A stretch of DNA of 64,000 nt from an uncultured Octadecabacter sp. (lineage in GTDB: Bacteria; Pseudomonadota; Alphaproteobacteria; Rhodobacterales; Rhodobacteraceae), in NCBI GenBank assembly GCA_937891785.1, contig CALAGN010000149.1:1-64000 (forward strand), in the 5' to 3' direction. Numbering within the stretch: position 1 is the first letter of the stretch; each line of letters opens with the position of its first letter. The notes under the pieces are model-generated. The model was not told the origin of the DNA and made no database searches. It was given only the letters and a program-made list of their open reading frames with translations. Shown here piece by piece: positions 1-13,252 of the stretch. The position numbers were made by a program, and so were the translations under genes.

Positions 1-118
1 GTCTGTCTCATCTTCCACTCCTCAGTGGTTACGATGAGCCAAGAACACTCTCTTATCAAATGCCGCTATTTGGACCCATAAGTGCTGACGTCAGACAGTG
101 GACATCTTGAGGTGGGCG
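1..118. other. Unresolved left edge, probable IS66-type 5' flank
   Basis: No coding frame can be supported here. The stretch lies directly upstream of a short frame that looks like the start of an IS66-family tnpA, so it may be the left end of that element, but I cannot identify a terminal repeat with confidence. A perfect 10-bp palindrome (CTGACGTCAG) sits at 85-94, 24 bases before the tnpA start codon. Confidence 0.3.
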
Positions 119-197
119 ATGGCGGGGAAGAAGGGGCAGAAAAAGCGAGTTTTGTTAGACGATGAGAAGGTGTCGATCTGCACGCAGGCGCGGGTGG
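119..197 (+). mobile_element. Truncated IS66-family tnpA (first ~26 codons)
   Basis: An ATG at 119 opens a frame reading MAGKKGQKKR, then about 16 residues with the pattern DDEK-SIC-Q-RV. This resembles the N-terminus of the small IS66 accessory protein TnpA, a helix-turn-helix protein of the Trp-repressor-like/IS3-OrfA type. The similarity stops after about 26 codons, where sequence coding for a VCBS-repeat protein begins. The rest of tnpA, tnpB, tnpC and the right end are absent. It is therefore a dead remnant left by a deletion or recombination inside an element. The family assignment rests on recognition of a short motif. Confidence 0.5.
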
Positions 198-885
198 TCT
201 ATCGATCGACAGCTCAGGATTTTGGACCTACGATCTGGATGATAGCTCTGGCGCTGTGCAGGCCTTGAACTCAGGCGATACGGTCAGCGACTCGTTCTCG
301 GTTGAAGTCAGCGACGGCAACGGCGGCGTTGATACCCAATCCATTACTGTGGATATTGCCGGTGAAAACGATGCGCCAGTTTTCCCAGAAGCGCCTGATC
401 CAAGTGGCGTCACAATCCTGTCCAATGTATCGGTTCTGGGATCATACAGCGCAACCTCAGGTTGCCAGACAAAAACCTTCACAGTTGACGCAGATGGCCG
501 CTACCAAATTTCGTTTGGTGCGGCCATCTGGTACGACAGCGATTATGACGGTAACCTCTGGATCGATAACATTGGAGCAGGCGGAGACCATTTCGACTTT
601 GAAACTGGCCTCGGCGTTTTCGCATCGACTGGCAACGTTGCGACAACGTCGGCGACAAGCACCGAAGGAAGCTATTCAGCTGTTTTGCACACTGGTGAAT
701 CCAGTCAGGCTGTCATTGAATCCTTCTTGGGCTATGATATTCCAAACGAAACCAGCTACGGGTCAGCAATGACGATGGAAGTGAATTTGCATGCAGGCGA
801 TACAGTAGGCTTCGATTGGCGCTTCGATGTATCGGACTATATGCCGTTCAACGATTATGCGTTCTACTTGGTCGAACTTGCCTAA
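193..885 (+). pseudogene. VCBS-repeat surface protein, C-terminal fragment
   Basis: In the frame ending at 885, residues coded from about 193 read as one VCBS (bacterial cadherin-like) repeat: GLSID-(S)-GFWTYDLD, then ALNSGDTV-D-F-V-VSDGNGG, and closing with the typical ENDAPVF. A beta-rich region follows, with FTVDADGRYQISFG and AGDTVGFDWRFDVSDY. Such repeats occur in large secreted adhesins and calcium-binding proteins. There is no start codon or signal peptide in frame: the upstream frame belongs to IS66 debris, and the first usable codon is a GTG at 256 inside the repeat. The C-terminus stops abruptly after AFYLVELA, which also looks curtailed. I read it as a gene remnant without function. 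Confidence 0.65.
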
Positions 886-909: not shown

Positions 910-931
910 GGGCGCGCCATTCGGTGCGCCC
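910..931. terminator. GC-rich hairpin after VCBS fragment, no T tract
   Basis: GGGCGCGCC, a 4-base loop ATTC, and GGTGCGCCC form a 9-bp stem with one G-T pair, 24 bases after the stop codon at 885. There is no following run of T, so it is at best a weak or Rho-assisted terminator of the VCBS reading frame. Confidence 0.35.
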
Positions 932-1147
932 TCCCGCAACCAAATTCCCCGAACAATCTCAATGCGCTATCAGCTACCCACGGGTGGCTTTTGCATGTCC
1001 AGATGTTGGGTCAACAATAGGTCAACAAAACAACCCAAACTGCGACGCAGAGTTGGCAAGGAAGCGTGCCTTTGCTTCTAACTGTCCTCGACTACTCTCC
1101 TCAGGCCGACATCACGCTTCGCCAACAATAATTCGATTTTCCCATCA

Positions 1148-1186
1148 CTTGTGGGACAAAGTTCAGAGCAGATCATGTCCCACAAG
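1148..1186. repeat. 11-bp perfect inverted repeat, 17-bp spacer
   Basis: CTTGTGGGACA at 1148-1158 is mirrored exactly by TGTCCCACAAG at 1176-1186. It lies in the noncoding scar just before the hypE remnant. It could be a relic of a mobile-element end, a recombination site or an old operator; the sequence alone does not decide. Confidence 0.6.
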
Positions 1187-1198
1187 CGATCACGGTCT

Positions 1199-1456
1199 GT
1201 TCGGAAAAGCGCCTGTTCCTGTTTGTCACCCAATACTGTGTGTTCGGCAAACGAGGGGACCCTCGTTGTCTTCGTCCCACCAGATCAGGCAGACGCTGCG
1301 CTGGCAGCCATGCGGGCAACGCCTGGCGGGCAAGATGCTGTCGCGAGTGGCGTCGCGGCGTAAAACCATCCGGGTCGCGTGGCGATGCGCACGCTCTTTG
1401 GCGGACAGCGTTTGGTAGATATGCTTGTCGGCGAGCCGCTTCCTCGGATTTGTTGA
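1199..1456 (+). pseudogene. hypE: hypE 3' remnant (hydrogenase maturation factor)
   Basis: One frame from about 1199 to the TGA at 1454 codes for the C-terminal ~85 residues of HypE, the carbamoyl dehydratase that makes the cyano ligands of [NiFe] hydrogenase. Recognisable blocks are ANEGTLVVFVPP, ADAALAAMRATPGGQDA, NHPGRVAMRTLFGG and the family's usual ending MLVGEPLPRIC. A TAA at 1361-1363 interrupts the frame between the second and third blocks, and nothing of the N-terminal ~250 residues is left. No other hyp or hydrogenase gene is nearby. The family call is by motif memory; the stop codon is seen directly. Confidence 0.7.
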
Positions 1457-1540: not shown

Positions 1541-2464
1541 GTGGGTATCGTATCAGTCCAAAACTTGACGAAGTCCTATGACGGGGGCTTTACCGCGCTT
1601 AAGGGCGTCTCGCTTGAGATTGAGGAGGGCGAGATCATCGCCCTGCTTGGTCCCAATGGTGCGGGGAAAACGACGCTGATCTCGACAATTTGCGGAATCA
1701 CACGGCCCACAAGCGGCACTGTCACCGTGGGTGGGTATGATATTATCACGGCTTACCGCGGCGCACGAAACCTTGTCGGGCTTGTGCCGCAGGAAATATC
1801 GCTCGAACCGTTTGAAAAGGTTATCAACACCGTGCGGTTTTCGCGCGGGCTGTTTGGCAAAGGCAAGGACGACGCCTACCTTGAAAAACTTTTGCGCCAA
1901 TTGTCTTTGTGGGACAAGAAAGACAGCAAGGTTATGACGCTGTCTGGCGGCATGAAACGACGTGTTCTTATCGCCAAGGCGCTTTCTCACGAGCCACGCG
2001 TGCTATTCCTTGATGAGCCGACTGCGGGCGTGGACGTAGAGCTGCGCAAGGACATGTGGCAGATCGTGTCCGAGTTAAAGCAAGCTGGCGTTACCATTAT
2101 TCTGACAACCCACTACATCGAAGAGGCCGAGGCAATTGCGGACCGGATCGGTGTTATCAACAAGGGTGAAATCCTACTCATCGAGGACAAAGACGCCCTG
2201 ATGGCACGCATGGGCCAAAAGCACTTGCGCATTGATCTGACAGAGCCATTGACCGAGGTTCCCAAATCGCTTGCCAAGCAGGGGCTGACTTTGGCAACGG
2301 GTGGGCACGGGCTGATCTATACCTTCGACGCCAATGCCGAACGGACTGGCATTGCGCGCATCCTTGCCGAGGTTCACAAGGCCGGACTGCAGCTTGCTGA
2401 TTTGCAGACCCAGCAAAGCAGTCTCGAAGATATCTTCGTTGATCTTGTGAAGGAAACGGCATGA
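1541..2464 (+). CDS. ABC-2 type exporter, ATP-binding subunit (YadG-like)
   Basis: Hydrolyses ATP to drive the permease encoded next, at the inner membrane. Walker A GPNGAGKT is at residues 37-44, the Q-loop VPQE near 82-85, the signature LSGGM at 134-138, Walker B VLFLDEP at 154-160 and the switch His at 191. About 90 C-terminal residues follow, as in the DrrA/YadG/NodI group. I start at GTG 1541 because AGGAG lies six bases upstream at 1530-1534; the same frame is open back to 1481 without a better site. The stop overlaps the permease start (ATGA). The substrate is unknown. The gene begins 84 bases after the hypE remnant. Confidence 0.9.
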
Positions 2465-3222
2465 ATTTCCAGGCCATTAAAGCGATCTACTTTAATGAAA
2501 TGGCGCGATTTTTCCGCACCTTGATGCAAAGCTTCATTTCGCCGGTCATTTCGACATCGCTTTACTTCGTCGTGTTTGGAGCCGCCATTGGCAGCCGCAT
2601 TGATGAGGTCGAGGGCATCAGTTATGGCTCGTTTATTGTCCCGGGCCTGATCATGCTTAGCGTGATGACACAGGCCACGACTAACGCATCCTTTGGTATC
2701 TATTTCCCGAAATTCATCGGCACAATTTACGAGATGTTGTCAGCACCTGTCAGCTTTCTTGAGATTACAATTGGGTATGTCGGCGCTGCGGCGACCAAGG
2801 CGCTATTCATCGGCTTTGTCATTTTGGGGACGGCCTTTGCATTTGTTGACCTCAGCATTGCGCACCCGTTTGCGATGTTGGCGTTCTTGGTGCTCACCTG
2901 CCTGTCGTTCAGCTTGCTCGGGTTCATCATCGGCATTTGGGCGCAGAATTTCGAACAGCTTCAACTCATCCCGCTGCTGATCATCACCCCACTCGTTTTC
3001 CTTGGCGGATCGTTTTACTCGATTTCGATGCTTCCGCCGGTCTGGCAGATTATCACTATGTTCAATCCGGTGGTTTACTTGATCTCGGGCTTTCGCTGGG
3101 CCTTCTTTGGAACATCGGATGTGTCTATCGTGCTTAGCCTTGGTGCAATCACGCTGTTTACGGGTCTCTGTCTGGCGGTGATCTGGTGGATTTTCCGCAC
3201 TGGCTGGCGCATTCGCCAATGA
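2461..3222 (+). CDS. ABC-2 type exporter, permease subunit (YadH-like)
   Basis: A 253-residue integral membrane protein with about six hydrophobic spans, the usual size for ABC-2 permeases. It has the family-typical stretch [20 protein letters not shown] followed by [13 protein letters not shown] near the C-terminus. It forms the transport channel with the ATPase that ends four bases into it. YadGH-type pairs export small molecules, polysaccharide precursors or drugs; nothing in the sequence narrows this down. An 84-base gap separates it from the next gene on the same strand. Confidence 0.9.
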
Positions 3223-3306
3223 CAGTATGTCTCGCGCGAAATATATGCGGGGTGCGCACAGTGGCAAGCCTTGTCGGGGGGGCTCTGACTGCCTAGATGA
3301 AGCAAC

Positions 3307-4101
3307 ATGAAACGTTGGATCCCTTTTATCAAATCTACGCCCTTTGTGGCTGTCATTCGCCTTCAAGGCCAAATCGCGAGTGGCGCGCGCGCCCTGAATG
3401 ATGCGACCCTTGCGCCCGCAATCGAAAAGGCCTTCTCCAAAGGCATGCCGGCAGCCATCGCGCTTGAGATCAACTCGCCCGGTGGGTCGGCCGTGCAATC
3501 GTCGCTGATAGCCGCTCGCATCCGGCGCTTGGCCGAAGAAAAAGGCATTCCGGTTTTCGCGTTCGTCGAAGATGTTGCCGCCTCAGGTGGGTATTGGCTA
3601 GCAACTGCAGCCGACGAGATTTTCGTTGATCGCGGGTCAATCGTTGGGTCAATCGGTGTGATTTCAGCCGGATTCGGGCTAACAGGCGCGATTGAAAAGG
3701 TTGGCGTTGAACGCCGCGTGCACACCGCCGGAAAATCCAAAAGCATGATGGATCCGTTCAAACCGGAAAAGCCCGCAGACATAAAGCGTCTTAAGGGGCT
3801 GCTTGATGATTTACATGTGTATTTCATTGATCACGTCAAATCGCGGCGCGGTGCACGGCTGATTGATAATCCCGATCATTTCACTGGTGAAATCTGGGTC
3901 GGTGACAAAGCTGTTGAACAAGGCCTGGCCGATCAGGTCGGTCACTTGGTGCCAGTCCTTAAGGAACGGTTTGGCGATAAGGTGAAACTACGACACTATG
4001 GCGTGAAGCGGTCGATGTTTTCGCGGTTCGGCGCACAATTGATCGACGACACCGTTGCCAGTATCGAAGAACGCGCGGCATTTGCGCAATTCGGCCTCTG
4101 A
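3307..4101 (+). CDS. S49 family serine peptidase (SppA/SohB-like)
   Basis: Signal-peptide peptidase-like serine protease of the inner membrane or periplasm, single-domain form (264 residues). EINSPGGSA (54-62) is the oxyanion strand. The nucleophile is Ser93 in AASGGYW, and the general-base lysine is expected at Lys145 in GKSKS...PF, giving the Ser-Lys dyad. GSIGVISA is also typical. There is a weak hydrophobic N-terminus rather than a clear cleavable signal. The next gene begins right after its stop, and four genes in a row are tightly packed. Substrates are probably signal-peptide remnants or damaged membrane proteins, by family knowledge. Confidence 0.9.
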   Translation: MKRWIPFIKSTPFVAVIRLQGQIASGARALNDATLAPAIEKAFSKGMPAAIALEINSPGGSAVQSSLIAARIRRLAEEKGIPVFAFVEDVAASGGYWLATAADEIFVDRGSIVGSIGVISAGFGLTGAIEKVGVERRVHTAGKSKSMMDPFKPEKPADIKRLKGLLDDLHVYFIDHVKSRRGARLIDNPDHFTGEIWVGDKAVEQGLADQVGHLVPVLKERFGDKVKLRHYGVKRSMFSRFGAQLIDDTVASIEERAAFAQFGL

Positions 4102-4102
4102 C

Positions 4103-4270
4103 GTGATTTTCAAGATCATAAGTTTGTTCTTGGTCGGGATGGCCGTGCTTGCCATGTTCGGCAAGATACGCTTTCCCGGACAGGAACGATTGGCTGCGGC
4201 CAAGTGCAAGAACTGCGGGCGCTACAGGATTGGCAAGGGGCCGTGCCCCTGCAGGAAGGGCCGCAAATGA
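4103..4270 (+). CDS. Small membrane-anchored zinc-ribbon-like protein
   Basis: A 55-residue protein starting at GTG 4103, one base after the preceding stop. Residues ~3-20 form one hydrophobic span (FKIISLFLVGMAVLAMFG). A basic linker follows, then a four-cysteine knuckle: CKNCG, 9 residues, CPC, ending KGRK. I believe similar short proteins accompany this antiporter in other Rhodobacteraceae, but no function is known to me. It overlaps the antiporter gene by four bases (ATGA), so the two are translationally coupled. A membrane-tethered zinc ribbon could act as an assembly or regulatory partner; that is inference. Confidence 0.75.
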   Translation: MIFKIISLFLVGMAVLAMFGKIRFPGQERLAAAKCKNCGRYRIGKGPCPCRKGRK

Positions 4271-5220
4271 TCATAGACTGGGTTTATACGGGCCTCGGCC
4301 TTGTGATCCTGCTGCTTGCGGGTGACAGCCTTGTTAAGGGGGCCGTAAATATGTCCCTGCGCCTTGGTGTGCCTGCCTTGATCGTGTCGTTGACGATTGT
4401 CGCGTTCGGCACCTCCGCGCCAGAATTGCTCATTTCGATCCAGGCGATCCTTGAAGATGTACCGGGATTGGCTCTTGGGAACGTCGTTGGGTCAAATACC
4501 GCGAATGTGCTGCTGGTGTTGGGTATCCCTGCTTTGCTTGCAGTCATGCACACTAGCGAATGCGACACGCGCGCCAGTTACGTTCAGATGATCGCGGCCA
4601 CGTTCCTTTTTATCGGGTTGGCGTACCGGGGGGCCTTTGACTGGGTCGCGGCGATTGTGCTGCTCACAGCCCTTGCTGCCATGCTGATCCATGCGGCCCG
4701 CGCAGCACAAAAACACCGTAAGGCCGACAAGATCGCAGATGATGATATAGAAGACCTTGAAGGCGCGGACCCTGATCTCCCATGGTCAAAGATATCGCTT
4801 TTTCTTGTGCTTGGCCTGATTGGTTTGCCACTTGGCGCAAGCTTGTTGGTGGATGGTGCCAGCAATATCGCAACCAGCTTTGGCATTTCCGACACCGTGA
4901 TCGGCCTGACCCTTGTGGCGATTGGCACGTCCTTGCCCGAATTGGCGACAACTGTGATGGCCGCAGTGCGGCGTCAGGCAGATGTGGCGATCGGTAATGT
5001 TATTGGCTCGAATATGTTTAATCTTTTGGGCGTTATCGGCATTGCCTCGCTGGTTGGGCCAATCCCCGTCGATCCGCAGTTCTTGCAGTTTGATCTTTGG
5101 GTAATGCTGGGCGCATCCCTGATCCTGATCCCATTTGTATTCCTTCGCGCCGACATCACCCGCATTTGGGGTATCGCGCTAAGCGTTCTTTACGTCACAT
5201 ATCTGTTTGTGGTGCTGTGA
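4267..5220 (+). CDS. Calcium/sodium antiporter (CaCA superfamily, YrbG-like)
   Basis: Inner-membrane cation exchanger of about 10 spans, 317 residues. The two inverted alpha-repeats are plain: AFGTSAPELLIS with GNVVGSNTANVLLVLG in the first half, and AIGTSLPELATT with GNVIGSNMFNLLGVIG in the second. The acidic residue in each PEL motif binds the cation. A charged cytoplasmic loop (KADKIADDDIEDLEGADPD) lies between the halves. I start at ATG 4267, which overlaps the previous stop. The stop at 5220 overlaps the next start (TGATG). It probably extrudes Ca2+ using Na+. Confidence 0.92.
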   Translation: MIIDWVYTGLGLVILLLAGDSLVKGAVNMSLRLGVPALIVSLTIVAFGTSAPELLISIQAILEDVPGLALGNVVGSNTANVLLVLGIPALLAVMHTSECDTRASYVQMIAATFLFIGLAYRGAFDWVAAIVLLTALAAMLIHAARAAQKHRKADKIADDDIEDLEGADPDLPWSKISLFLVLGLIGLPLGASLLVDGASNIATSFGISDTVIGLTLVAIGTSLPELATTVMAAVRRQADVAIGNVIGSNMFNLLGVIGIASLVGPIPVDPQFLQFDLWVMLGASLILIPFVFLRADITRIWGIALSVLYVTYLFVVL

Positions 5221-5999
5221 TGCCCCGCGCCTTGGTCACGGGGGCAGCTGCGCGTCTTGGGCGGTCGATGGCTTTGTATTTGGCGGATCGTGGGTATGAC
5301 GTTGCGGTGCATTATCATAGATCGCGTGACGCAGCCGTGGCGGTCGTTGCCGAGATTGCGGCCAAGGGCCAGCGCGCCGTGGCAATTTGTGCCGACCTGC
5401 TGGATGAAGATGAAACCGCCGCGTTGGTCGATGCTGCCGCCGCAAAGCTGGGTGGGCCGCTCGCCTGTCTGATCAATAACGCGTCAATCTTTGAATATGA
5501 TACCATCCAGTCAGCCACACGCCAAGGTTGGGACCGCCATATCGGGTCGAACCTGCGCGCGCCGTTTGTGCTTACCCAGCAGTTTGCCGCACAGGTGCCC
5601 GAACCGGTAATCGACGAAAATAGCGAGCCTTTGGCGCAGGGCTTGATCATCAATATGATTGACCAGCGCATCCGCAAACTGACGCCTGAGTTCATGACCT
5701 ACACGATTGCGAAGGCTGGTTTGTGGGTAATGACACAGACCACTGCGCAGGGGTTGGCCCCGCGCGTCCGCGTCAATGCGATCGGGCCGGGGCCGACCTT
5801 GCAGGGTGCGCATCAAAGCACGGCACAGTTTGTCCGCCAACGAAGCGCGACGATTATGGGGCGCGGATCCGAGCCTGCGGACATCACAGCGGCGCTGGGC
5901 TATTTCCTCGATGCACGCGCAGTGACGGGGCAGATGCTTGTTGTGGATGGCGGTCAGCATCTAGCTTGGGAGACGCCTGATACCGTCGGTGTCGAGTAA
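5220..5999 (+). CDS. SDR oxidoreductase, pteridine reductase/FolM-like
   Basis: NADPH-dependent short-chain reductase, 259 residues. TGAAARLGR near residue 7 and the following HYHRS resemble the TGxxxRLG and HYHRS of protozoal pteridine reductase PTR1 and bacterial FolM (dihydromonapterin reductase). The usual catalytic Ser is replaced by Asp in IINMIDQ, as in PTR1, while YTIAK supplies the Tyr-Lys pair. NNAS and DGGQHL are normal SDR landmarks. It probably reduces dihydropterins or dihydrofolate. The exact substrate is inferred. The start ATG at 5220 shares a base with the antiporter's stop codon. Confidence 0.8.
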   Translation: MPRALVTGAAARLGRSMALYLADRGYDVAVHYHRSRDAAVAVVAEIAAKGQRAVAICADLLDEDETAALVDAAAAKLGGPLACLINNASIFEYDTIQSATRQGWDRHIGSNLRAPFVLTQQFAAQVPEPVIDENSEPLAQGLIINMIDQRIRKLTPEFMTYTIAKAGLWVMTQTTAQGLAPRVRVNAIGPGPTLQGAHQSTAQFVRQRSATIMGRGSEPADITAALGYFLDARAVTGQMLVVDGGQHLAWETPDTVGVE

Positions 6000-6281
6000 C
6001 CAGCCGACAAGTTGTGCACGTTGGCTTTTCAGAATCGCAAAACGGTTACAAATTCTTAATGTTTTCAGACGGTTGCCTTGAAAAAATAAATATCCTCCAA
6101 AATCAATTACTTAGGGAGCTGCCTAAAAAATAGGCAACGTCAGAAAACCCCCTGTAAACAAGGGAGAAATTGGACCCACGCAGAACTGTCCCCGTAGTTA
6201 TCCACAAGAAAAGTGGATAGCTTTCCTCTTGTCCTTTCTGCGATATGGTTGCAGCCCACCACAGAATCAGAGCCACGCCGC
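6000..6281. promoter_or_regulatory. AT-rich uvrC upstream region with DnaA-box motif
   Basis: 282 noncoding bases, clearly richer in A/T than the neighbours, especially 6040-6115. It holds a perfect inverted repeat TGCCTA-AAAAA-TAGGCA (6120-6136). It also holds a perfect DnaA-box consensus TTATCCACA (6198-6206), whose TATCCAC core is mirrored by GTGGATA at 6213-6219. Promoter-like TTGTCC is near 6232 before uvrC. This may be a DnaA-responsive control region. Confidence 0.5.
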
Positions 6282-8159
6282 ATGAGTGATGAAACTACCA
6301 GCGATACGCCCGAGCCACTGACGGGCCATGCCCTCATTCAGGCCTATCTGCGCACGCTGGATTCGTCGCCTGGGGTGTATCGGATGCTCGATCACGAAAG
6401 CCGTGTTTTGTATGTGGGCAAGGCTCGCAATTTGCGCGCGCGCGTCAGCAACTATGCGCGGCCCGCCGGTCACAGCGGGCGGATCGAACGCATGATCCGC
6501 GAGACACGGTCGATGATGTTCCTGACCACCGCGACCGAGACCGAGGCGCTGTTGCTGGAACAGAACCTGATCAAGCAGCTCAAGCCGAAATACAACGTGC
6601 TGCTGCGTGACGACAAAAGCTTTCCCAACATCCTTGTGACCGCCGATCATGCCTATCCGCAGATCAAGAAACATCGCGGTGCGAAAAAAGAGAAAGGTGA
6701 TTATTATGGCCCCTTTGCCAGCGCGGGTGCGGTGAACCGGACGCTGAATCAGCTTCAGCGCGCGTTTTTGTTGCGCACTTGCACCGATAGCGATTTCGAA
6801 AACCGCACGCGACCTTGTTTGCTGCATCAAATCAAGCGTTGCGCGGCTCCCTGCACGGGCAAGATATCAGAGGCCGACTATGCGCAACTGGTGAAGGATG
6901 CGCAGCGCTTCCTTTCGGGAAAATCAACCGAGATGCAGGCACAATTGGCGACTGATATGGCCAAGGCATCGCAAGAGATGGAGTTTGAACGCGCCGCTGC
7001 CCTGCGTGACCGCATCCGCGCCCTGACCCAAGTGCAGACCGCACAAGGTATCAACCCGCAAGGTGTGGCCGAGGCTGACGTGATTGCCCTGCACACCGAT
7101 GGCGGGCAGGCCTGTGTGCAGGTGTTCTTTATCCGCGCCAATCAAAACTGGGGTAACCGCGATTATTATCCGCGTATCTCCGGTGACGAGGACATGGCCG
7201 AAGTCATGCAGGCTTTTGTTGGGCAGTTCTATTCTGACCGCGATCCGCCGCGAATGCTGCTGCTGTCGCATGGGCTGGACGACACCGATCTTGTGACCGC
7301 GGCCTTGTCCGAAAAGGCAAAGCGCAAGGTCGAGATTATCGTGCCACAGCGTGGTGAAAAGGCCGACATCCTACAAGGTGCCGCGCGCAATGCCCGCGAA
7401 AGTCTTGCGCGGAAAATGTCAGAAACGGCGACCCAGAGCAAACTGCTTCGCGGGCTGGCCAAAGCCTTTGATCTGGGTGACCCTCCGCGCCGGATTGAGG
7501 TTTATGACAATAGCCACATTCAAGGTGCGCATGCCGTTGGTGCAATGATCGTGGCGGGCCCTGAAGGATTCGAGAAAGGCCAATATCGTAAGTTCAATAT
7601 CAAGGGCGAAGACCTGACGCCGGGCGATGATTTTGGTATGATGAAGGAAGTTCTGACCCGCCGTTTCAAACGCCTGTTGAAGGAAGATCCCGAACGCCAG
7701 GCAGGAAGCTGGCCGGACCTGTTGTTGATTGACGGCGGCAAAGGGCAAGTGAGTGCCGTGCGCGAGATCATGACAGAACTTGGTGTGGGCGACGTGCCGA
7801 TGGTTGGCGTCGCCAAGGGATTGGATCGCGACGCAGGCAAGGAAGAATTTCACCGGACCGGACAGCGCATCATGGCGTTACGCCACAATGATCCGGTGCT
7901 TTATTTCGTGCAACGTATGCGCGACGAGGCGCACCGCTTTGCGATCGGTACCCATCGCGCCAAGCGTAGCAAGGCTATCGGCGTGACCCCACTTGATGAT
8001 GTGCCGGGCGTTGGTGCGACACGCAAACGGGCACTTCTTGCGCATTTCGGCAGTGCCAAGGCAGTCGGGCGCGCGGCGCTTGCAGACCTCAAGGCCGTGG
8101 CCGGAATATCGGACAACATGGCGCAGGGTATCTATGATTATTTTCATGAAAAGGGGTAG
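6282..8159 (+). CDS. uvrC: Excinuclease ABC subunit C
   Basis: UvrC makes the two incisions around bulky DNA lesions after UvrA-UvrB have loaded; cytoplasmic. 625 residues, full length. The GIY-YIG nuclease domain begins with SSPGVYRML and [16 protein letters not shown] (~30-65). The UVR (UvrB-binding) region lies around 215-250. The RNase H-like second nuclease has [10 protein letters not shown] and LLIDGGKGQ. Tandem helix-hairpin-helix motifs ([20 protein letters not shown]) end the protein. I chose ATG 6282; the frame is open upstream to 6213 but that part is not conserved-looking. It is preceded by an unusual AT-rich gap. Confidence 0.96.
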
Positions 8160-8219
8160 TGGCCTCGAACTGGTCTACGGGGAGTGGTGCACGCCGCCAT
8201 TTGGAGCTAGGAATGACAT

Positions 8220-8903
8220 ATGAGATGGAATCTACCAAATATACTGACTGTCCTACGCCTGCTTGCCGCTCCCGGTGTAGCGCTGATGTTTCTTTATTTC
8301 GCGCGCCCGTATGCTGATTGGTTCGCGCTGATCCTATTTGTGGTGGCCGCGACGACCGACTGGATTGACGGCTATCTCGCGCGTGCATGGAACCAGCAAA
8401 CCAAATTCGGCGCGATGCTTGATCCGATTGCCGACAAGGCGATGGTTGTCATCGCGCTGCTGGTGATTTGCAGTGTGTCTGGATGGGGATCGCAGACGGG
8501 TTTTGATCGGTGGATTTTGCTGCCAGCGACACTTATTATGTTCCGCGAGACTTTCGTCAGCGGGTTGCGCGAATTTTTGGGCGATACGGCGGGCACTTTG
8601 GCGGTTACGAAGCTTGCTAAATGGAAGACCGCCGCGCAGATGACCGCGATTGCCGTGCTGTTTTCCACCGGTGCGTTCGACACGTATTTTCAGATGTCCA
8701 CGGATGGCATGGATGACGCGCTGATCATCGCTGTGCTTGAAGGAACTGAACCTGATTTACAGGGGCTTATCTGGAAGCTGAACGGCGCATTCTATAGCTG
8801 GTGGATCGGTATCATCTTGCTTTGGGCGGCAATGATTTTGACCATGCTTACGGGCTTTGACTACTTTCGCAAATCGCTCCCCTATCTGAGGGAAAACGCG
8901 TGA
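8220..8903 (+). CDS. pgsA: CDP-diacylglycerol--glycerol-3-phosphate 3-phosphatidyltransferase
   Basis: Makes phosphatidylglycerol phosphate, the committed step to phosphatidylglycerol and cardiolipin, in the inner membrane. 227 residues with several hydrophobic spans. The CDP-alcohol phosphotransferase signature DGx2ARx8Gx3Dx3D is complete in DGYLARAWNQQTKFGAMLD-(3)-D near residues 43-65. An insertion around 160-185 (TDGMDDALIIAVLEGTEPDL) is extramembranous. Sixty bases separate it from uvrC, and the 3' end overlaps moaD by four bases. Confidence 0.94.
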   Translation: MRWNLPNILTVLRLLAAPGVALMFLYFARPYADWFALILFVVAATTDWIDGYLARAWNQQTKFGAMLDPIADKAMVVIALLVICSVSGWGSQTGFDRWILLPATLIMFRETFVSGLREFLGDTAGTLAVTKLAKWKTAAQMTAIAVLFSTGAFDTYFQMSTDGMDDALIIAVLEGTEPDLQGLIWKLNGAFYSWWIGIILLWAAMILTMLTGFDYFRKSLPYLRENA

Positions 8904-9148
8904 TCGATGTCGTCTATTTCGCTTGGGTACGTGAACGCATCGGGGTGCCGCGTGAACAAGTGGAAACCAAGGCGGCAACCGTGCGCGATTTGATCGCCGA
9001 ACTGCGCGGGCGCGAAGAACGCTATGATTTGGCATTCTCGGACACAAGCGCGCTGCGGGTCGCCGTTGACCAAACGCTTGCTGATTTCGACGCCCCGCTG
9101 GAAGGCGCCCGCGAAATAGCGTTTTTCCCACCCATGACAGGTGGCTGA
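8900..9148 (+). CDS. moaD: Molybdopterin synthase small subunit MoaD
   Basis: Ubiquitin-fold sulfur carrier, 82 residues. It ends in the diagnostic Gly-Gly (FFPPMTGG), the C-terminal Gly being thiocarboxylated by MoeB before sulfur transfer to precursor Z. It works with MoaE, encoded immediately downstream. It starts at GTG 8900, four bases inside pgsA, and its stop shares a base with the moaE start (TGATG), so translation of pgsA, moaD and moaE is coupled. Length and ending match the family. Confidence 0.93.
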   Translation: MIDVVYFAWVRERIGVPREQVETKAATVRDLIAELRGREERYDLAFSDTSALRVAVDQTLADFDAPLEGAREIAFFPPMTGG

Positions 9149-12406: not shown

Positions 12407-12444
12407 ATGGGGTCGCGTGTTAGATCGCCGCGACCCCATTCTTT
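12407..12444 (+). terminator. Rho-independent terminator after phaA
   Basis: ATGGGGTCGCG (12407-12417) and CGCGACCCCAT (12429-12439) form a perfect 11-bp stem with an 11-base loop. The T-rich TCTTTT follows. It lies 16 bases after the phaA stop. Confidence 0.85.
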
Positions 12445-12457
12445 TGCAGATTCTGGC

Positions 12458-12495
12458 GCGCAATAAAGTTGCGCCTATGTTTGCGCTCGTATAAT
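12458..12495 (+). promoter_or_regulatory. phaB promoter with overlapping inverted repeat
   Basis: A perfect -10 box TATAAT is at 12490-12495, with TTGCGC at 12469-12474 as the -35 (15-base spacer, somewhat short). The -35 is the right arm of a perfect inverted repeat GCGCAA-N5-TTGCGC (12458-12474). A protein bound there would block RNA polymerase, so it is a candidate operator. Confidence 0.6.
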
Positions 12496-12526
12496 ATCAT
12501 TGCTAACCGAAATTGGAGGATACACG

Positions 12527-13252
12527 ATGTCACGCGTCGCACTTGTTACCGGAGGCTCCCGCGGGATCGGGGCAGCAATCGCCAAAGCACTGGCCGCCGA
12601 GGGCTATATTGTCGCCGCGACCTACGCGGGCAACGATGAAAAAGCTGCTGCCTTTACCGCCGAAACCGGCATCAAGACTTACAAATGGGACGTGGGAAAC
12701 TACGAAGCCTGTCAGGCTGGTATCGCCCAAGTCGTAGCCGATCTTGGCCCTGTTGAAGTCTTGGTTAACAACGCGGGCATCACCCGTGACGCGCCGTTCC
12801 ACAAAATGACGCCGCAACAGTGGCAAGAAGTGATCGACACCAACCTGACGGGCCTGTTCAACATGACCCATAACGTCTGGGGTGGAATGCGTGAACGCAA
12901 GTTCGGGCGTGTGGTTTCGATTAGCTCGATCAATGGCCAGAAGGGCCAGTTCGCCCAAACAAACTATGCTGCCGCCAAGGCAGGTGACATTGGTTTTTCC
13001 AAGTCGTTGGCACAAGAAGGTGCGCGCGCTGGCATTACCGTTAACGTGATCTGTCCGGGCTATATCAACACCGAAATGATGAGCACGATCCCCGAAAAGG
13101 TCATGAACGACGTGATCTTGCCGCAAATTCCGGTTGGTCGCCTTGGCGAACCCGAAGAAATCGCGCGCGCTGTCGTGTTTCTTGCATCTGACGAAGCCGC
13201 GTTCATTACAGGTTCGACGATTTCCGCGAACGGCGGGCAATACATGATCTAA
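12527..13252 (+). CDS. phaB: Acetoacetyl-CoA reductase
   Basis: NADPH-dependent SDR that reduces acetoacetyl-CoA to (R)-3-hydroxybutyryl-CoA for polyhydroxybutyrate. 241 residues. The cofactor loop is TGGSRGIG, followed by NNAGITRD. The catalytic Ser-Tyr-Lys lies in SISSINGQKGQF and NYAAAK, and the specificity region CPGYINTEMM is typical of PhaB. GGAGGA at 12515-12520 sets the ATG at 12527. Flanked by its own promoter and a strong terminator, so probably monocistronic. Confidence 0.95.
   Translation: MSRVALVTGGSRGIGAAIAKALAAEGYIVAATYAGNDEKAAAFTAETGIKTYKWDVGNYEACQAGIAQVVADLGPVEVLVNNAGITRDAPFHKMTPQQWQEVIDTNLTGLFNMTHNVWGGMRERKFGRVVSISSINGQKGQFAQTNYAAAKAGDIGFSKSLAQEGARAGITVNVICPGYINTEMMSTIPEKVMNDVILPQIPVGRLGEPEEIARAVVFLASDEAAFITGSTISANGGQYMI

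Follow-up and report, generated by a model that had tools for sequence, protein, structure and literature searches.

The window, by which is meant the whole stretch of 64,000 nucleotides analysed here, is taken from an uncultured Octadecabacter sp. (assembly GCA_937891785.1) and starts at the end of contig CALAGN010000149.1. Its first features all lie on the forward strand. At 98..196 lies the left end of an IS66 element that breaks off within its first open reading frame; it matches, at 84.8%, the beginning of an IS66-type transposase unit carried by P. pseudonitzschiae plasmid p4. The DNA joined to this IS66 start at 98, window positions 1-97, matches parts of several roseobacter-type plasmids at 84.6-95% identity, and some of these parts are annotated as an IS3 family transposase. 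The 3' end of a gene for a VCBS-repeat protein follows at 197..885 (TIGR01965 VCBS_repeat, 35.1 bits in 256-882; its start is taken from the end of the IS66 match), with a terminator-like hairpin of that gene at 910-931. At 931..942 stand the same 12 nucleotides as at the 3' end of the initiator tRNA-fMet, CTCCCGCAACCA, here without a whole tRNA and representing a putative attachment-site core. They are succeeded at 943..992 by a flank resembling the natural 3' flank and terminator of tRNA-fMet, as judged by comparison with Octadecabacter sp. SW4 (G001) and with G383, and at 1009..1030 by a tandem GGTCAACAATA GGTCAACAAAA repeat that may represent integrase arm sites. A hypE pseudogene at 1247..1456 comes next, consisting of the last 69 codons and the natural TGA stop and interrupted by an in-frame TAA at 1361..1363. 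Beyond it lies an exporter operon, the first gene of which encodes an ABC ATPase (1541..2464, PF00005, start inferred) and is followed by an ABC-2 permease gene (2461..3222, PF01061). A reading made from the sequence alone had placed this operon 84 bases after the hypE stop, a distance that holds with the ATPase start inferred at 1541; the list of open reading frames starts that frame at 1481. The ATPase is similar to that of SW4 (contig C1, 2928574-2930171), and window positions 1625-9000 are collinear with the SW4 genome.

The identity of the gene tail is clear: it is about the last fifth of hypE, a hydrogenase-maturation gene required for building hydrogen-consuming enzymes. The frame at 1199-1456 translates as VRKSACSCLSPNTVCSANEGTLVVFVPPDQADAALAAMRATPGGQDAVASGVAA, a stop, NHPGRVAMRTLFGGQRLVDMLVGEPLPRIC and a second stop, and translation puts the TAA at 1361-1363, between TPGGQDA (extended by VASGVAA) and NHPGRV, just where the sequence-only reading had seen it. 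A genome-wide profile search with TIGR02124 matches this stretch, across one TAA, at 64.4 bits (E 1.4e-17, model positions 250-332 of 332), and the 69-residue tail covers model positions 264-332 at 63.7 bits; at 64.4 vs 251.6 bits the remnant falls below the curated cut-off of the family. HypE is the only NCBIfam family matched by the read-through peptide at E<=1, and there is thus no match to PurM, ThiL or SelD, so that the assignment to HypE withstood the alternative named against it, a better similarity to PurM/ThiL proteins. Pfam returned no match at E<=0.01 on the 69-residue tail and a sub-cut-off match to AIRS_C (E 0.0017) on the frame before the TAA. The C-terminal cysteine of the PRIC motif, which has a role in cyanide-ligand formation by HypE, is present, with LPRIC and the stop at 1439-1456. 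The N-terminal ATP-binding (AIR-synthase-like) part of HypE is absent, as there is no DNA homology left of 1246 and protein signal reaches at most to ~1193. The earlier view of a decayed hypE is supported, both in the identity of the gene and in its pseudogene status.

At the DNA level, the left end of the tail is a sharp junction at 1244..1247, located by the drop in identity, nhmmer and blastn and read as the junction of an inferred deletion. With nhmmer, a DNA profile built from 29 hypE genes of the family aligns only to 1246-1456 (E 3.8e-40). In blastn, hypE matches start at 1246/1247 in 11 of the 19 matching loci and nowhere further left, and a family-wide DNA search gives 1239 as its earliest start. 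The mean identity of the remnant to 17 related hypE genes, taken in bins of 30 bases, drops from 0.74 (1247-1276) to 0.31 (1217-1246), compared with 0.80 and 0.83 in the same two bins when the intact hypE of the relative G324 is set against the other 16 genes. These 17 genes were chosen from 30 hypE genes by the ending LVGEQLPRIC, with L032 left out as a near-duplicate of L004 and 12 more distant genes also left out. Over the last 87 codons they share 45 invariant columns, of which the remnant breaks 12, 11 of them at or left of 1246. Translated searches carry a weak HypE signal leftwards to ~1193-1205: adding 1199-1246 lifts the TIGR02124 score from 63.7 to 68.8 bits, and the 19 residues that precede the break outscore shuffles in register (p 0.0012) as well as 99.85% of window positions, their DNA scoring above 98.2% of positions. 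There may therefore be a heavily mutated hypE extension of ~15 codons left of 1246. Because the DNA profile is limited to 1246-1456 and identity drops there, the secure remnant is 69 codons and the stop rather than the ~85 codons from 1199 that had been proposed; the C-terminus of that proposal stands but its start does not.

Within the 69 codons the protein sequence is well kept. The remnant retains 30 of 31 invariant columns and breaks one, by a Q to P change at 1436-1438, although 10 of the 31, the broken column among them, are invariant through the choice of genes by the LVGEQLPRIC ending. The pN/pS ratio of the remnant against the 17 working genes is 0.28, vs 0.33 among the working genes, and mean pS to the remnant is slightly above that among working genes (0.745 vs 0.643). 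Since 30 of 31 invariant residues are retained, hypE was probably under selection until recently and probably died only recently.

The genome to which the window belongs is a draft of 3.32 Mb in 161 contigs (completeness 99.99). SW4, the one congener compared, served as positive control for the hydrogenase searches. A whole-genome profile search found no full-length hypE over the TIGR02124 cut-off in the draft and found one in SW4; likewise, neither hypD nor the [NiFe] large subunit (PF00374) gave a match in the draft, and both were found in SW4. The genome-wide search that had been proposed, for a second hypE, other hyp genes and the large subunit, therefore yielded no full hypE, no hypD and no large subunit. 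A 14-kb DNA query from the SW4 hydrogenase region returned nothing from the draft, a weak result from a DNA search of limited reach run without a control. A second intact hypE was considered and rejected, as the other two matching frames in the draft, of 743 aa (51.4 bits) and 370 aa (21 bits), both score far under the cut-off; they are most likely other AIR-synthase-type proteins, because the family search matches such frames in hypE-less genomes too. Further hydrogenase scraps in the window were also sought and rejected. A tblastn search (E<=1e-4) with all frames of at least 100 aa from three hydrogenase loci (L214, L006, L007) matched the hypE tail, antisense frames over the tail, and 5454-5954 and 12416-13237, the last two through a frame that lies outside the hydrogenase genes. 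With hypD and the large subunit lacking matches in the draft and both present in SW4, the suggestion that hydrogen metabolism was lost from this strain gains support: a [NiFe] hydrogenase was likely lost, the state of the tail suggests that this happened fairly recently, and the strain would be unable to make an active [NiFe] hydrogenase.

Among 394 genomes of the family, 66 have a hypE over the cut-off, and the trait is thus patchy in the family, as had been stated when the remnant was first noticed. A published study (PMC10305171) reports that 75 (4.0%) of the bacterial MAGs encode aerobic uptake hydrogenases, that MAGs from multiple Rhodobacteraceae carry enzymes of group 1d, and that Marinovum algicola FF3 showed no substantial uptake of H2. 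No paper on the present locus was found, judged at the level of search results. Other partial hypE copies occur in the family, at G032:C20:3641-3850, G246:C14:41197-41763 and G008:C13:4315-4557; they resemble the remnant in being partial genes and differ from it in representing other parts of the gene. The copy on G008:C13 is an extra one, whereas G032 and G246 have no hypE match over the cut-off, so that decay of the hydrogenase may recur in the family.

The closest comparisons for the tail are found in G324, which belongs to a different genus, and on a plasmid of SW4. The tail is 80% identical to the HypE of G324 (69 residues), and 68% (69 residues) or 60% (83 residues) identical to that of SW4, whereas the UvrC protein of the window is 91% identical to that of SW4 and 74% to that of G324. 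Orthology with the SW4 plasmid hypE was accordingly rejected, given 60% and 68% for HypE vs 91% for UvrC. The HypE proteins (TIGR02124) of the hup/hyp clusters of G324 and of SW4 plasmid NZ_CP042820.1 share with the remnant the C-terminal 69 residues and the LPRIC ending; unlike them, the remnant lacks the first ~260 residues, carries an in-frame TAA and lies far below the family cut-off. In G324, hypE comes after hypD and closes a cluster that also encodes the small and large subunits, a protease of the HyaD/HybD type and a regulator of the sigma-54 type; the gene that follows it is oriented in the opposite direction. As hypE is the end of that cluster, a deletion from the upstream side would leave a hypE tail.

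The SW4 hypE, hypD and large subunit are all present in its assembly, and its hydrogenase is plasmid-borne: contig C2, of 108,352 bases, is 100% identical to NZ_CP042820.1 over the 12 kb tested. The hypE regions L004 (SW4, G001:C2:66864-70865) and L032 (G177:C8:12161-16162) agree at 4001 of 4002 bases, and G177 is of a different genus from SW4, its UvrC being 77% identical to that of the window. This near-identity may mean that a plasmid-borne hydrogenase was transferred very recently, or that one of the two assemblies is contaminated. A match to Roseovarius indicus plasmid NZ_CP031601.1 extends over 91% of the 12-kb SW4 query at 96.7%. In SW4, the ABC ATPase matches in two frames with a break near residue 137 (L042, 9343-10250), and the first ~30 residues of UvrC lie in a separate match (G001:C1:2925422-2925514), reflecting either frameshifts or base errors there.

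To the left of the tail, the tRNA-fMet-like end at 931-942 resembles the copied 3' end and flank of a tRNA, as is found at the end of integrative elements that use tRNA sites, although the copy comprises 12 nucleotides only. ARAGORN finds no whole tRNA here; in the relatives it calls the gene tRNA-Met (cat), and "initiator" is the label given in this analysis. Aligned over 62 columns, positions 931-992 share 75.8% identity with the end and flank of tRNA-fMet in SW4, and 931-1044 are 79.3% identical over 116 columns to a 3' copy of the tRNA in G383. A tandem GGTCAACA repeat also occurs shortly after tRNA-fMet ends in G343, G175, G383, G386 and G035. The 12-mer was found in 8 of 80 ABC loci (1.54 Mb), which belong to named relatives sharing this ABC permease and are the 80 best among at least 582; it lies within the tRNA in seven and once (L054) stands without a tRNA. 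Taken alone, the 12-nt match would be weak evidence. The match to the tRNA 3' end extends over ~47 nt in SW4, G383 and G386. The arrangement of tRNA-like end and flank is nevertheless like that of the tRNA-3'-end sites of tyrosine-integrase islands, partial copies of which are seen in the same three genomes; it differs from such islands in its 12-nt match and in that the right end of an element is not recognisable. Integrase-type proteins lie near the tRNA-end sites of SW4 and G383, whereas here Pfam recognised no integrase in seven frames over 816-1521. Neither an intact tRNA-fMet nor a second copy of the tRNA end was found in the draft, by a tRNA search run without a positive control and with the contig ending at position 1. 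Two inverted repeats were seen nearby. TGCG before the 12-nt tRNA end, or a near copy of it, forms an imperfect inverted repeat like a recombinase core site (GGTGCG..CGCAACC at window 925-942) in four genomes: here, in L193 at 5557, in L182 at 1501 and in L186 at 1501 (reverse strand). An exact 11-bp inverted repeat, CTTGTGGGACA..TGTCCCACAAG, lies at window 1148-1186, 60 bases left of the hypE break.

The same tRNA stands upstream of the same ABC operon, on the same strand, in 7 of the 80 relatives (best 80 of at least 582), whole in six and cut by the contig end in one. Its distance from the operon ranges widely: the gap is 111 bp in L048 and 163 bp in L056, without hypE, and ~36 kb in SW4. 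The DNA directly upstream of the ABC gene varies among the six relatives compared. In SW4, a stretch of ~5.5 kb runs from the tRNA to a 47-nt copy of the tRNA 3' end. It contains a frame of 241 aa that has Arm-DNA-bind_3, an N-terminal integrase domain (E 1.1e-13), and no catalytic domain; the SW4 interval has no match to frames of the hydrogenase cluster. This stretch and the differing DNA among relatives indicate that the interval is variable and has been visited by integrative elements. No hypE was detected in the stretch examined at any of these 80 loci (the best among at least 582, with at least 3 of the 80 shorter than 8 kb; best E 1.0), and the pieces of hypE in four control loci were detected. 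Conversely, ARAGORN found no tRNA-Met in 18 hydrogenase-neighbourhood stretches of 16 genomes, three of which held bare matches to the 10-nt core. Given the tRNA-fMet-like end, the linkage of tRNA and ABC operon in relatives and the short gaps without hypE, the tail lies in this variable tRNA-fMet/ABC interval.

The history that best fits these data, to which we assign a probability of about two in three, is that a hydrogenase cluster once lay in the tRNA-fMet/ABC interval and that a deletion with its right end at ~1246 left the last 69 codons of hypE as a dead tail. The cluster would have lain between the initiator tRNA-fMet and the conserved ABC exporter operon, an interval that is filled with different DNA in relatives and visited by tRNA-fMet integrative elements, and it might have arrived with such an element. 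The deletion would have taken everything up to about codon 265 of hypE, leaving a non-functional tail, and the TAA would have arisen with the deletion or after it. No genome with an intact hydrogenase cluster in this interval was found in the stretch examined at the 80 ABC loci (best 80 of at least 582).

Alternatively, the fragment could have been imported already truncated, as the passenger of a mobile element, into a lineage that never had a working hydrogenase here. The position of the tail beside a tRNA-fMet-like end, in a variable interval, would agree with this, as would the plasmid location of the hydrogenase in the congener SW4. The GC3 of the tail is 0.61, however, within the 0.55-0.67 of its neighbours and below the 0.79 of the hypE of relatives, thus resembling the host genome and not the GC-richer relatives, although such a host-like value fits long residence as well as import. 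Furthermore, 1050-1245 resembles nothing informative in the searched genomes, as is also the case for 1457-1540. A truncated import is therefore considered unlikely.

It had also been supposed that a native, vertically inherited chromosomal hydrogenase was lost, and that the rearrangement responsible also produced the IS66/VCBS junction. In a tree of 38 hypE tails and the remnant, which rests on 207 bases only, the remnant groups with G324, G307, G125 and G250 (support 0.96, five members), the hypE genes of which, in other genera, lie on contigs of at least 435 kb; together with the host-like GC3, this makes a long-resident chromosomal copy possible. A hydrogenase native to this place is not supported, since none of the 80 relatives (best 80 of at least 582) has hypE upstream of the ABC operon in the stretch examined and two (L048, L056) have a short, hypE-less gap. 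Nor is there support for the event behind the IS66/VCBS junction as the cause of the loss: that joint (~196/197) falls inside both elements, ~1,050 bases from the hypE break (~1246) and beyond the tRNA end, with the VCBS 3' end and hairpin and the tRNA-fMet-like end and flank (931-~1030) in between. Separate junctions at 196/197, ~931 (inferred) and ~1246 thus lie between the IS66 piece and the tail, and a single event cannot be read from them; native loss of this kind seems quite improbable. Least credible by far is an artefact, either a chimeric contig or a working gene into which a false TAA was read. In its favour are a draft of 161 contigs and a window whose first bases, at a contig end, are repeated IS DNA. 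Against it, about four fifths of hypE are gone, the 99.99% complete genome gives no match to hypD or the large subunit, and 1625-9000 is collinear with SW4; with so much missing, the TAA is not what kills hypE.

The tail itself is an ordinary gene scar and reveals no new gene, system or mechanism. A broader proposal, which we put forward only tentatively and hold to be rather doubtful, is that the interval is a hotspot passing whole [NiFe]-hydrogenase clusters, with H2 oxidation as cargo that was gained and lost here in one species and is carried on a 108-kb plasmid in its congener, the hypE region of which is common, almost base for base, to another genus. The remnant records one case in which a marine roseobacter lost its hydrogenase capacity, probably recently, and places that loss in a tRNA-fMet-linked variable interval; it provides one example of the patchiness of hydrogenase genes in the family, with the congener carrying the trait on a plasmid. 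If the hotspot proposal were true, hydrogen oxidation would be a cargo trait in this Octadecabacter-like group.
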